Positions 50,651 through 56,526 of a DNA stretch of 64,000 nucleotides are shown here, piece after piece. The translations under genes were made by a program, and so were the position numbers. The notes below the pieces were generated by a model, which saw only the letters and a program-made list of their open reading frames with translations, was not told where the DNA came from and did no database searches. Position 1 is the stretch's first letter; the number at the start of each line of letters is the position of its first letter. Origin of the DNA: Halostella limicola (GTDB taxonomy: Archaea; Halobacteriota; Halobacteria; Halobacteriales; Natronoarchaeaceae); the NCBI RefSeq assembly GCF_003675875.1, contig NZ_RCDI01000003.1, forward strand, positions 124,001-188,000, written 5' to 3'.

Positions 50651-52336
50651 ATGGACGACACCCAGGACTCCCAGCCGAGCGACGCGCCGTCGCGCGACGA
50701 GACCGCCGCCGAGCCGCGGGACTCCGACGACGGCCGCTTCGACGCCGTCAGACGACGGATCCGACGCGCGGTCGAGATGCTCCGCGGGTCGAACGTCGAC
50801 CCGGAGAACTACGACCCCGACCGCCACGGCAACCTCGTCACGTTCGACGGCCTCGACGGCTACGAGGAGATAGACCGGTACTGGGTGAACGCCCCCTTCG
50901 CGTTCGTGTCGATAAACCGCGACCCCGAGGAGAACAAGCACGTCTACCACGCCGTCGAACCGCAGCTGGAGGAGTACGAGTACGCCCTCCTGGAGGCGCT
51001 GTTCGACGACATCCGCGACCCCTTGGTCTACCGGCAGGACGTCGACGACGGCGACGTGGAGTCGGTGCTCGCCGACGAGCTCCGTGAACACCTCGAACGC
51101 TACGGGGCCGAGGTCGACATGCAGACGTTCTACAAGCTGTTTTACTACCTCTACCGGGCGTTCCGCGGGTTCAACAAGATCGACCCGATCATGCGGGACC
51201 CCCACATCGAGGACATCTCCTGTGACGGCTACGACCTCCCCATCTTCGTCTACCACGACGAGTACACAGACATCGAGACGAACGTCTCGTTCGGACAGGA
51301 CGAACTCGACAACTTCGTCATCCGCCTCGCCCAGCACTCCGGCCGGCACATTTCCATCGGCGACCCGATGGTCGAGACGACGCTGCCGGACGGGAGCCGC
51401 GCGGAGCTCGCGCTCGGCGAGGAAGTGACGCCCCGCGGCTCCGCGTTCACCATCCGGAAGTACGCCGACGAGCCGTTCACGCCCGTCGATCTGCTGGAGT
51501 ACGGCACGTTCAGCGTCGACCAGATGGCCTATCTCTGGCTCGCTATCGAGAACAACAAGAGCCTCATCTTCGCCGGCGGCACGGCGTCGGGGAAGACGAC
51601 GTCGATGAACGCCATCTCGATGTTCATCCCGCCGCGCTCGAAGGTGCTGACCATCGAGGACACCCGCGAGCTCGCGCTGTACCACGACAACTGGCTCTCC
51701 AGCGTCACCCGCGACCGCATGTCCGAGGGCAGCGACATCACCATGTACGACCTCCTGCGGTCGGCGCTTCGCCACCGCCCGGAGTACATCGTCGTCGGCG
51801 AGGTCCGCGGCGAGGAGGCGATCACCCTGTTCCAGGCGATGAACACGGGGCACACGACGTACTCGACGATGCACGCCGACAGCGTACGGACGGTGATCAA
51901 CCGACTGGAGAACGAGCCGATCAACGTCCCGCGGGCGATGGTTCAGAGCCTCGACGTCCTCTGCGTCCAGACGCTCACCCGCTTCGAGGACGAGCGCGTC
52001 CGCCGGAACAAGACGATCGCCGAGATAGAGGGGATCGACCAGCGGACCGGCGAGCTCGACTACTCGAACGCCTACTCCTGGAACCCCGACGACGACTCGT
52101 TCGAGGGCGGCGACAGCGAGGTCTTAGACGAGATCCGCGACGACAACGGGTGGGACCAGTCCGAGCTCCTGCGCGAACTGCAGCGACGCCGGGAGTTCCT
52201 GCGATACCTCTGGGACAACGACGTGACGGACTACCGGCGGTTCACCGCGATGATAAACGAGTACTACTCCGACCCGGACGCCGCGATGGCCTCGATCGAC
52301 GACGGCGCCGAGTCGGAGCTCCTCCCGACCGACTGA
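50651..52336 (+). CDS. pilB: Type IV pilus/secretion ATPase (PilB/TadA type)
   Basis: 561 residues. A variable acidic N-terminus precedes the secretion-ATPase core: Walker A GGTASGKTTS near 308, Asp box LTIEDTREL, Walker B IVVGEVRGEEA and His box GHTTYSTMHADS. It powers assembly of type IV pilus-like fibres at the inner face of the membrane. The PilC-like gene follows with a TGATG overlap. No pilin gene is nearby. Confidence 0.93.
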   Translation: MDDTQDSQPSDAPSRDETAAEPRDSDDGRFDAVRRRIRRAVEMLRGSNVDPENYDPDRHGNLVTFDGLDGYEEIDRYWVNAPFAFVSINRDPEENKHVYHAVEPQLEEYEYALLEALFDDIRDPLVYRQDVDDGDVESVLADELREHLERYGAEVDMQTFYKLFYYLYRAFRGFNKIDPIMRDPHIEDISCDGYDLPIFVYHDEYTDIETNVSFGQDELDNFVIRLAQHSGRHISIGDPMVETTLPDGSRAELALGEEVTPRGSAFTIRKYADEPFTPVDLLEYGTFSVDQMAYLWLAIENNKSLIFAGGTASGKTTSMNAISMFIPPRSKVLTIEDTRELALYHDNWLSSVTRDRMSEGSDITMYDLLRSALRHRPEYIVVGEVRGEEAITLFQAMNTGHTTYSTMHADSVRTVINRLENEPINVPRAMVQSLDVLCVQTLTRFEDERVRRNKTIAEIEGIDQRTGELDYSNAYSWNPDDDSFEGGDSEVLDEIRDDNGWDQSELLRELQRRREFLRYLWDNDVTDYRRFTAMINEYYSDPDAAMASIDDGAESELLPTD

Positions 52337-54450
52337 TGGCGCTCGCGAACTACCTCCCGCTGGTCGTCGCCGTCGCCGCGTTCCTGCCCGCGCTGCTCGC
52401 GCCGCTGAGCGCCCGCGCCGAACGGATCGTCACGCGGTTCGCGATGGTGCTTTTCGGCGACTACGTCAGCGACACGGGTCGCAAGCGCGCCCGCCGCCGA
52501 CAGATGCTCCGCGCGGCGCACATGCCGACGACGTTTCGCGTGTACGCGGCGAAGACCGCCCTGTACGCCGCGCTCGCCGCGCTCGCGGGTGGCGTCCTCG
52601 CGACGTACGTCATCTGGGCGATCCTTCGCCTGCTCGCGCTCGACCCCGAGACCCTCCGCGCGGTGCTGCCCGACCGTCTCTCCGTGCTGGCGACGTTCGG
52701 CGGCGTGACGACCGTCCCGCTGGAACAGCTGTTCGGCCTCCTGCTCATCGCCGGTCTCACCCTCGGGACGGCGGGGGGCGTTCTCACCTACTGGGCGCGC
52801 TGGTGGTTCCCGCGCCACCGGGCCGAACAGCGCGCGGAGCGGATCGACGCCAGCATGCCCCAGACCGTGGCGTTCGTCTACGCGCTTTCCCGGAGCGGAA
52901 TGGCGTTTCCGAAGGTGTTGCGGATCCTCTCGGACAACCGCCGGGTGTACGGGGCCGCCGCGGACGAGGTCCAGGTCGCCGTCCGGAACATGGACATGTT
53001 CGGCATGGACATGATCTCCGCGATCAAGACGATGTCCCGCCGGACGCCCAGCGAGAACTTCAGGGAGTTCGGCGAGAACCTCACCGGCGTCCTCCAGAGC
53101 GGACGGAGCCTCTCCGAGTTCCTCCGCCAGCAGTACGAGGAGTACCGGGAGGAGGCCGAGGCCCAGCAAGAACAGCTGCTCAACCTGCTCGCGACGATGG
53201 CCGAGGCGTACGTGACGGTGCTCGTCGCCGGCCCGCTGTTTCTGATAACCATCCTCGTCATCATCGGGATCACGGTCAACGACACGCTCCCGGTGTTGCA
53301 GTTGCTCGCGTACTTCCTCTTGCCACTCGCCAACCTCGGGTTCATCCTCTATCTCGACACGGTGATGGCCTCGATGACCGGCGCGACGACCCCCGAGAAG
53401 ATCGAGTCGGCGCTGTCCGACCTCTCGGGCATCCGCCGCGTCGAGGGGCCGCGACCCCGGACCGACGGAGGACGGGGGCCGACGGAGGGTCGCACCGCCG
53501 ACCCCAACGTCGAGCGGCTCCGGGCCTACCAGCGGTTCCGGTGGGTGCGAACCCGGCTCGGCCAACCGCTCCAGACGGTGCTCGACCGCCCGGTCGCGCT
53601 GCTGTGGGTGACGGTCCCCCTTGCCGTCGCCGTCACGGCGTGGCGACTCCCGCAGGCGGTCGCGGCCGGCGGGCTGACGCCCGCCGCCGTCGACGACCTG
53701 CTCATCCAGGCTGGGCTGTTCGTCATCGGGACGTTCGCGCTCGCCTACGAGGTCCACAAGCGCCGCATCGAGGCGATCGAGGCGTCGATCCCCGACTTCC
53801 TCGACCGCCTCGCGAGCGTCAACGAGGCCGGGATGACCGTCGTCGAGAGCCTGAACCGCGTCCGAACGAGCGAACTCGGCGCGCTCAACCGTGAACTCGA
53901 CCGCGTGTGGGCCGACATCCAGTGGGGCGCGGACGTCGAGACCGCGCTGCGGCGCTTCGAGGCGCGGATGCGCACGCCGACCGTCTCGCGGGTCGTCACG
54001 CTCACGACGAAGGCGATGAACGCCAGCGGCAACCTCGGCACGGTGCTGCGGATCTCGGCCGCGCAGGCGAAGGCCGACCGGCGGCTCAAGCGCGAGCGCC
54101 GACAGGAGATGCTCACCTACCTCGTGGTCGTGTACGTCTCGTTCGGCGTCTTCCTCGTCATCATCGCCGCGCTGAACAACGTGCTGATCCCGAACCTCCC
54201 CGAGGGGAGCGTCGTGCCGAACGCCACGAGCGACCGGGCCGGCAACATCGGCGCGATCCAGACGGTCAGCAATCTCGGCAGCATCGACGAGGGTGCGTAC
54301 ACGCTCGTGTTCTTCCACACGACGCTCATCCAGGGGGTGCTCTCCGGCATGGTCGCAGGCCAGATGAGCGGGGGAGACGTGCGCGACGGGGCGAAACACG
54401 CCGCCATCCTGCTCGCGCTGGCGTACGCGGCCTTCCTCGTCATCCTTTAG
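52336..54450 (+). CDS. pilC: Type IV pilus membrane platform protein (PilC/TadC type)
   Basis: 704 residues with two copies of the T2SSF fold. Each copy has a cytoplasmic helical domain (PQTVAFVYALSRSGMAFPKVLRIL; PDFLDRLASVNEAGMTVVESLNRV) followed by membrane helices; about nine helices in all. It is the base on which pilin fibres are built, driven by PilB. The start overlaps the pilB stop by one base (TGATG). Confidence 0.92.
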   Translation: MALANYLPLVVAVAAFLPALLAPLSARAERIVTRFAMVLFGDYVSDTGRKRARRRQMLRAAHMPTTFRVYAAKTALYAALAALAGGVLATYVIWAILRLLALDPETLRAVLPDRLSVLATFGGVTTVPLEQLFGLLLIAGLTLGTAGGVLTYWARWWFPRHRAEQRAERIDASMPQTVAFVYALSRSGMAFPKVLRILSDNRRVYGAAADEVQVAVRNMDMFGMDMISAIKTMSRRTPSENFREFGENLTGVLQSGRSLSEFLRQQYEEYREEAEAQQEQLLNLLATMAEAYVTVLVAGPLFLITILVIIGITVNDTLPVLQLLAYFLLPLANLGFILYLDTVMASMTGATTPEKIESALSDLSGIRRVEGPRPRTDGGRGPTEGRTADPNVERLRAYQRFRWVRTRLGQPLQTVLDRPVALLWVTVPLAVAVTAWRLPQAVAAGGLTPAAVDDLLIQAGLFVIGTFALAYEVHKRRIEAIEASIPDFLDRLASVNEAGMTVVESLNRVRTSELGALNRELDRVWADIQWGADVETALRRFEARMRTPTVSRVVTLTTKAMNASGNLGTVLRISAAQAKADRRLKRERRQEMLTYLVVVYVSFGVFLVIIAALNNVLIPNLPEGSVVPNATSDRAGNIGAIQTVSNLGSIDEGAYTLVFFHTTLIQGVLSGMVAGQMSGGDVRDGAKHAAILLALAYAAFLVIL

Positions 54451-56270: not shown

Positions 56271-56347
56271 CGCGAGTGAGCGAAGCGCGCCGGTGTTGAG
56301 ACGGACGGAGTCCGTCGATCCACGGCGCGAGTGAGCATAGCGAACGA
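56271..56347. repeat. Imperfect direct repeat of the tRNA-Gly 5' flank
   Basis: CGCGAGTGAGCGAAGC then GCGCCGGTG (56271-56295) is echoed by CGCGAGTGAGCATAGCGAACGA (56326-56347), which leads into the GCGCCGGTG of the real tRNA. The first copy therefore includes the first nine bases of the tRNA without the rest. A short inverted repeat (GACGGA / TCCGTC) lies between. Confidence 0.6.
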
Positions 56348-56418
56348 GCGCCGGTGGTCTAGTGGCAGGACCTGAGCCTTCCAAGCTCATGGCCCGGGTT
56401 CAAATCCCGGCCGGCGCA
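56348..56418 (+). tRNA. tRNA-Gly (anticodon TCC)
   Basis: Acceptor GCGCCGG pairs with CCGGCGC, discriminator A. The anticodon stem TGAGC/GCTCA encloses CTTCCAA with anticodon TCC. The T-arm is CCGGG-TTCAAAT-CCCGG. 71 nt, no intron, CCA not encoded. Confidence 0.95.
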
Positions 56419-56454
56419 TGATTGTCTCGAACGGACGTGAGAGACATCACCGTC

Positions 56455-56526
56455 ACGCCGGTGATTTGAACTACGCGAGACGAGCGTAGCGAGTCTCGCC
56501 ATCGAGTTCAAACCCCGGCCGGCGCA
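56455..56526 (+). pseudogene. Degenerate tRNA-Gly copy
   Basis: 72 nt, 36 nt after tRNA-Gly. It begins ACGCCGGTG and ends GTTCAAACCCCGGCCGGCGCA, which copies the tRNA's 5' end and last 21 bases with one change each. CGCCGG can still pair with CCGGCG. The T-stem is broken (TCGAG against CCCGG), and the D and anticodon arms are replaced by an inverted repeat GCGAGAC...GTCTCGC (56478-56500). It cannot be a working tRNA. Confidence 0.65.

Follow-up and report, generated by a model that had tools for sequence, protein, structure and literature searches.

The window, i.e. the whole 64,000-nt stretch of Halostella limicola DNA analysed here, contains a tRNA-Gly(TCC) gene and raises the question of what has been placed directly behind it. 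The gene itself is intact (56348..56418, + strand; 68.5 bits against RF00005, recognised by both ARAGORN and Rfam). A 72-nt element (56455-56526) begins 36 nt past its end, and the initial annotation had taken this element for a degenerate copy of the tRNA which had lost its middle to an inverted repeat. The coordinates are borne out and the observation is real, but its reading changes: the element is nearly certainly one unit of a repeat family and not a rotting tRNA copy.

Read along the + strand, the last 21 nt of the tRNA (56398-56418) form a tail, here called T, which is followed by the first half of the unit, segment D (56419..56462). This segment consists of a trailer hairpin (GTCTC..GAGAGAC) and a linker, and part of 56455-56462 within it is complementary to the tail. 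Then come an inverted T-loop arm (GATTTGAAC, 56463..56471), a centre of 34 nt (56472..56505) with the hairpin TACG-CGAGAC..GTCTCG-CCATCGA, assigned to class C below, and a copy of the tRNA-Gly 3' end (56506..56526), which comprises the T-loop, the 3' strands of the T-stem and of the acceptor stem, and the discriminator base. That the tRNA 3' end is present a second time had been noticed correctly, with 20 of 21 positions identical; a longer copy at 56503-56526 has 22 of 24 nt identical, 108 nt downstream of its original in tRNA-Gly(TCC). Arm, centre and tail copy together make up the hairpin of the unit (56463-56526), and the stretch from 56455 on is predicted to form one long hairpin (RNA fold -50.4 kcal/mol, z -4.0). 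The middle is indeed an inverted repeat, as seen by self-comparison as well as by the hairpin fold.

For 56455-56526 neither ARAGORN nor Rfam gives a tRNA match, and no cloverleaf, intact or decayed, was recognised. The supposedly kept 5' end of the acceptor turned out to be something else: positions 56456-56472 (CGCCGGTGATTTGAACT) are complementary over 17 nt (76%) to the 3' arm of the element itself. Among 180 related units the acceptor 5' strand matches, with at most one mismatch, in 17, where 7.3 are expected. Because such matches are rare, the constant left arm of the family is to be seen as an inverted T-loop (GATTYGAAC) and not as an acceptor remnant. Also the agreement of the 72 nt with the length of a tRNA is coincidental, as the centres of the units vary from about 28 to 57 nt.

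The same gene is preceded by a 5'-side unit of 61 nt (56287..56347, + strand), which repeats the initial 9 nt of the tRNA-Gly (GCGCCGGTG) and continues with a hairpin (GACGGAC..GTCCGTC). The 9-nt copy is exact, lies at -61 and occurred in 0 of 300 shuffles; exact copies at this distance also precede tRNA-Gly(CCC) of the same genome and two tRNA-Gly genes of G289. Units of 61-64 nt were also seen upstream of tRNA-Gly(CCC) in the same genome, at loci L002 and L004-L007, and upstream of two tRNA-Gly genes of the second genome surveyed below (G289); this counterpart was seen upstream of tRNA-Gly genes only. Behind tRNA-Gly(CCC) (G000:C2:887720-888614; L033, L237) the 3'-side unit is 813 nt away, and DNA seems to have been inserted between this tRNA and its unit. 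Elsewhere in the window, two open reading frames (50651-52336 and about 52336-54450) resemble, as judged by eye, a type IV pilus or secretion ATPase and its membrane partner.

In related genomes, a search with the element alone gives matches behind tRNAs for Gly, Glu, Ala, Pro, Arg, His and Thr. These matches have a conserved inner part, and their outer part corresponds to the local tRNA sequence. The class C centre of the window is 97% identical to a centre 3' of a tRNA-Glu in genome G008. For the family as a whole we used the pattern GATTYGAACN{26,55}GTTCRAATC, which is blind to tails and centres. This inverted T-loop pattern is present in 327 of 391 Halobacteria genomes with a completeness of at least 90%, and the reversed, uncomplemented control pattern does not appear among the matches listed in Halobacteria. 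A scan of the same phylum found it in 48 of 60 Halobacteria versus 2 of 236 other genomes. Over the genomes of 84,980 species at least 80 loci were obtained, and 42 of the matches listed are haloarchaeal. Among the matches listed, 38 of the 42 haloarchaeal loci have a same-strand tRNA upstream, but only 2 of the 38 non-haloarchaeal loci have an upstream tRNA, and in nearly all of these 38 listed haloarchaeal tRNA loci the 12-14 nt past the hairpin repeat the local tRNA end. Three seemingly tRNA-less loci (L143, L385, L386) have an intron-bearing tRNA directly upstream, which ARAGORN missed, and a Pfam scan of the proteins neighbouring them shows no integrase. Another locus (L114) has two units behind a tRNA 3' end but apparently no intact tRNA 5' part just upstream, possibly as a result of an insertion into the tRNA.

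All tRNAs of two genomes, that of the window and G289, were read together with 850 nt downstream, and the last 20 nt with at most three mismatches were counted as a match to the own tail. The own tail recurs behind 13 of 44 tRNAs in the window's genome (one of these 13, at +523, turns out to be a second tRNA-Asp gene and not a unit) and behind 22 of 42 in G289, where a few matches are likewise due to neighbouring genes, which leaves the excess over the controls unaffected. Up to four tandem tail copies, about 100-130 nt apart, are found in G289. When the tails of other tRNAs were used (200 shuffles), the means were 0.39 for the window's genome and 0.52 for G289 with a maximum of 3, and reverse-complement tails gave 0 and 1, respectively. 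Since 13 of 44 own tails stand against a mean of 0.39 for other tails, the tail copy is not a product of chance. Degenerate units which have lost their tails also exist. It is nearly certain that this is a family, with this layout and restricted to this clade, and not a decayed tRNA.

In total we collected 220 units from 139 tRNA loci representing 33 tRNA kinds. Their length is 96-177 nt (5th-95th percentile) with a median of 123, the first spacer measures 34-79 nt and the centre 28-57 nt. The loci follow a simple grammar, in which the tRNA is continued as T, D, M, T, D, M, T and so on, e.g. T-D-M-T-D-M-T-D, where T is the last ~21 nt of the tRNA, D a trailer segment of 40-75 nt with a hairpin of its own, and M the inverted T-loop arm together with a hairpin centre that differs between classes. 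In the centre classes constant internal loops adjoin the T-loop arms: CCT..TCCG in class A, GAGA..GCGTG in class B, TACG..CATCGA in class C, CAGACGAG..CTCGGCGAG in class D and CAGGGA..GACCGTG/GACTGAG in class E; the simple assignment rules used left 67 of 183 centres without a class. Three stem positions beside the loop of class A are Watson-Crick paired in 93%, compared to 40% after shuffling (max 62%), and 11 different triplets are used there. The first unit behind tRNA-Ser(GGA) at L392 (G074) has a class A terminal loop enlarged by ~100 nt of nested hairpins, which suggests that this loop tolerates insertions. An inversion of M like in a shufflon was rejected, because the centres listed share one orientation, and so was a true T-arm in the 3' part of the unit, because the bases 5' of GTTC track the centre class and not the tRNA. 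K-turn and bulge-helix-bulge motifs did not fit, as judged by eye.

The left arm follows the T-loop with which it pairs. In 88 of 167 distinct hairpins it is the exact complement of its own T-loop, versus 50 after shuffling (max 63), and among hairpins with a T-loop other than GTTCAAATC, 48 have an arm with a better fit to their own T-loop and 13 one with a worse fit. Left-arm transitions leave the tRNA-sense strand with a G.U (or G.T) pair in 53 cases and with A.C in 7; collapsed by position, tRNA and centre type they amount to 47 versus 7, with 680 and 656 opportunities (p about 3e-8), and because the compared rows share ancestry these counts are not fully independent. The RNA fold of the sense strand is better than that of the antisense strand in 129 of the 167 hairpins. 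The G.U excess and the better sense fold are strong indications that the tRNA-sense single strand is under a pairing constraint, to which RNA and single-stranded DNA fit alike.

The arrays are also polar. First tail copies are nearly perfect, and of the 58 arrays with at least two units, 25 have the more degenerate tail at the far end, 2 have it next to the tRNA, and 31 are ties. At one tRNA-Ser(GGA) locus within one genus the number of units in the readable species is 0, 1 or 2, D and M types are combined in several ways, and the D segments are mosaic, which means that ordinary homologous recombination clearly acts as well. Unit-free loci retain a D segment (T-D in L389 and L391), and losses may therefore outnumber gains. 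An identical 57-nt hairpin stands behind tRNA-Pro and tRNA-Ser in genome G044, the identity stopping at the T-loop arms, and in G289 the centres behind tRNA-Leu and tRNA-His are 98% identical with arms that match each local T-loop. Both the polarity of decay and the exchange of centres between tRNA loci are strongly supported.

How could such units arise? Several features speak for recombination at the tRNA 3' end, namely the direct repetition of exactly this end, the polarity, the same orientation, the shared centres and the gain and loss of units. The pairing constraint in turn speaks for a folded single strand. We tentatively favour, with a little less than even confidence, the reading that such recombination generates the units and that their hairpin is recognised as a folded single strand. 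A new unit would be added at the tRNA, whose 3' end from the T-loop onward would serve as the recombination site, and each distal tail would be a former working tRNA 3' end, displaced outward as in insertion at a tRNA attB or in an integron array. Recognition of the unit as a folded single strand of tRNA sense may explain why the terminal loop drifts but stems, internal loops and G.U pairs persist. The recombinase would treat the T-loop region as its site and the hairpin as the partner, and, most speculatively, it might belong to a Halobacteria-restricted family of tyrosine recombinases and act in trans; the integrase families of pR1SE, HSTV2 and SNJ2 are restricted to Halobacteria (PMC8371274). 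Units might be lost again via ordinary recombination between two T-D copies. The scanned neighbours contained no recombinase or cargo gene, and the phage, plasmid and IMG/VR records no virus or plasmid with a unit. The polarity could also come from gene conversion that is driven by the tRNA gene and fades with distance, and a hairpin on the sense strand is what one would expect of an RNA just as well.

The main rival, which we consider rather unlikely, is a processed trailer RNA. The tRNA transcript would include the units, which would be set free from it as small hairpin RNAs comparable to E. coli RtT; selection would act on the RNA, and the tandem copies would arise passively. Such an RNA agrees with the excess of sense-strand G.U (47:7), the better sense fold in 129 of 167, the conserved internal loops, the covariation in class A and the fact that units always lie in the tRNA's own direction, and the E. 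coli tyrT repeats combine the same layout with an annotated sRNA. However, one locus may carry 0 to 2 units within a genus and most tRNAs of the window's genome have no unit, so that no single copy is needed. The identity of tail and tRNA is left unexplained as well, and RtT itself is absent from haloarchaea: its covariance model (RF00391) matches in 0 of 21 haloarchaeal genomes with a positive E. coli control, and Rfam at a relaxed threshold gave tRNA and chance matches only, and no RtT, at five unit-bearing loci.

A passive origin comes second and is, in our view, unlikely. One ancestral unit per locus would have been followed by unequal crossing-over, gene conversion and template switching at the T-loop, without a dedicated enzyme or a function, and the T-loop would offer a microhomology common to all tRNA genes. 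Haloarchaea are polyploid and recombine readily, which suits such processes, and so do the reassortment of D and M types and the mosaic D segments; recombination between T-D copies yields exactly the unit-free T-D of L389 and L391. Passive processes alone, however, do not explain the sense-strand bias and the conserved internal loops, nor the few centre classes shared across genera and the restriction to one archaeal class. Passive duplication with gene conversion certainly contributes, as the mosaic D segments show.

The resemblance to an attachment site, which had been pointed out for the repeated end, stands in part. The repeated piece extends from the T-loop to the discriminator base, tandem copies are freshest near the tRNA, and copy number varies within a genus, but in the neighbours scanned and the records searched no integrase, cargo, virus or plasmid accompanied the units, and a spacing of 34-79 nt is too small for a classical integrated element. 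Of the features of tRNA-integrated mobile elements, the flanking direct repeat of the tRNA 3' end is found here and an integrase or cargo between the repeats is not. It is very improbable that the locus is the footprint of a single excised provirus or integrative plasmid (an attL/attR pair). The repeated 21 nt do have the form of a tRNA attB, and haloarchaea are known to have larger insertions with tRNA-tail repeats (PMC3119063). The passages of this 2011 Haloquadratum genome paper considered here report partial tRNA copies with proviruses and large insertions, besides small mobile repeats. The fixed spacing, the tandem units of ~95-180 nt and the conserved hairpin centre do not fit such a footprint, and the window's element has no match in phage and plasmid records or in the viral contigs of IMG/VR. 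The general pattern occurs in 65 IMG/VR contigs, none of which has a haloarchaeal centre class as judged by eye. Three IMG/VR contigs (L346, L349, L364) carry a ~20-bp inverted repeat (GGATTTGAACCGTGGACCTCTGG..CCAGAGGTCCACGGTTCAAATCC) spanning the T-loop, which is perhaps also present in L163 and L165 (Bifidobacterium genomes) and perhaps represents an invertible tRNA attachment site.

Hardly credible at all is a duplicated tRNA-Gly that decayed and had its middle replaced by an inverted repeat, as length and 3' end resemble a tRNA at the window locus alone, whereas many genomes have one and the same centre behind tRNAs of different amino acid specificity, arms and local T-loops vary together, the class A stem covaries, first copies are nearly perfect, and the acceptor 5' strand is not generally retained.

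Recombination at the tRNA 3' end, the reading we favour, can be taken further to an archaeal integron-like system at tRNA genes, with the T-loop as primary site, exchange of folded single strands, and an insertion-borne copy that replaces the tRNA 3' end. We regard this extension as doubtful; if it is true, the array behind a tRNA would be a dated record of insertions. The repeat family is apparently undescribed: it is not in Rfam, a search of the open literature found no description of a tRNA-tail hairpin repeat family, and the passages of the Haloquadratum genome paper considered here do not describe one (PMC3119063). In the two surveyed genomes between a third and a half of the tRNA genes have such repeats. 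The family is present in most haloarchaeal genomes and may matter for haloarchaeal tRNA annotation and for the calling of attachment sites and genomic islands. It ties together tRNA 3' ends, recombination and single-strand hairpins, offers an archaeal parallel to E. coli tyrT, and its natural polarised arrays are material for testing gain, loss and exchange.

Among known systems, the tyrosine-recombinase sites in tRNA 3' ends (SNJ2, pR1SE, HSTV2) are alike in the repeat from the T-loop onward, in tandem accretion and in keeping the tRNA whole. The haloarchaeal units differ in having neither integrase nor cargo, in measuring only ~100-150 nt, in using nearly all tRNA kinds, and in adding an inverted T-loop arm and a conserved hairpin centre. 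Integron attC arrays and CALINs likewise consist of same-oriented imperfect hairpins at one primary site, with AAC..GTT at the hairpin base, conserved unpaired bases and a variable terminal loop. However, the attC boxes RYYYAAC..GTTRRRY agree with the haloarchaeal arms GATTYGAAC..GTTCRAATC at AAC/GTT only, no integron integrase or genes were found, and the haloarchaeal units end in a tRNA tail. The SMR and PATEs of Haloquadratum are, according to the passages considered, also short non-coding repeats with inverted ends and without transposase, but they are dispersed, whereas the haloarchaeal units adjoin their cognate tRNA only and have ends made of local tRNA sequence (PMC3119063).

The closest known system are the distal repeats of E. 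coli tyrT/tyrV (RttR/RtT, RF00391), the likeness being tandem units that end in the tRNA 3' end. In E. coli MG1655 three 178-nt units directly follow tRNA-Tyr at tyrT, each ending in the last 19 nt of the tRNA and containing, besides a hairpin-rich centre, part of the tail in inverted form (GGGGAAGGAT); the RttR sRNA and tpr are annotated there. These units are near-identical and belong to one tRNA locus in the stretch examined, and their arm covers T-stem and acceptor, whereas the haloarchaeal arm covers the T-loop and the haloarchaeal family extends over 33 tRNA kinds with shared, exchangeable centres and without sequence homology to tyrT. As the RtT model has no haloarchaeal match, the haloarchaeal units are not of the same family as those of tyrT but share with them the same kind of layout.
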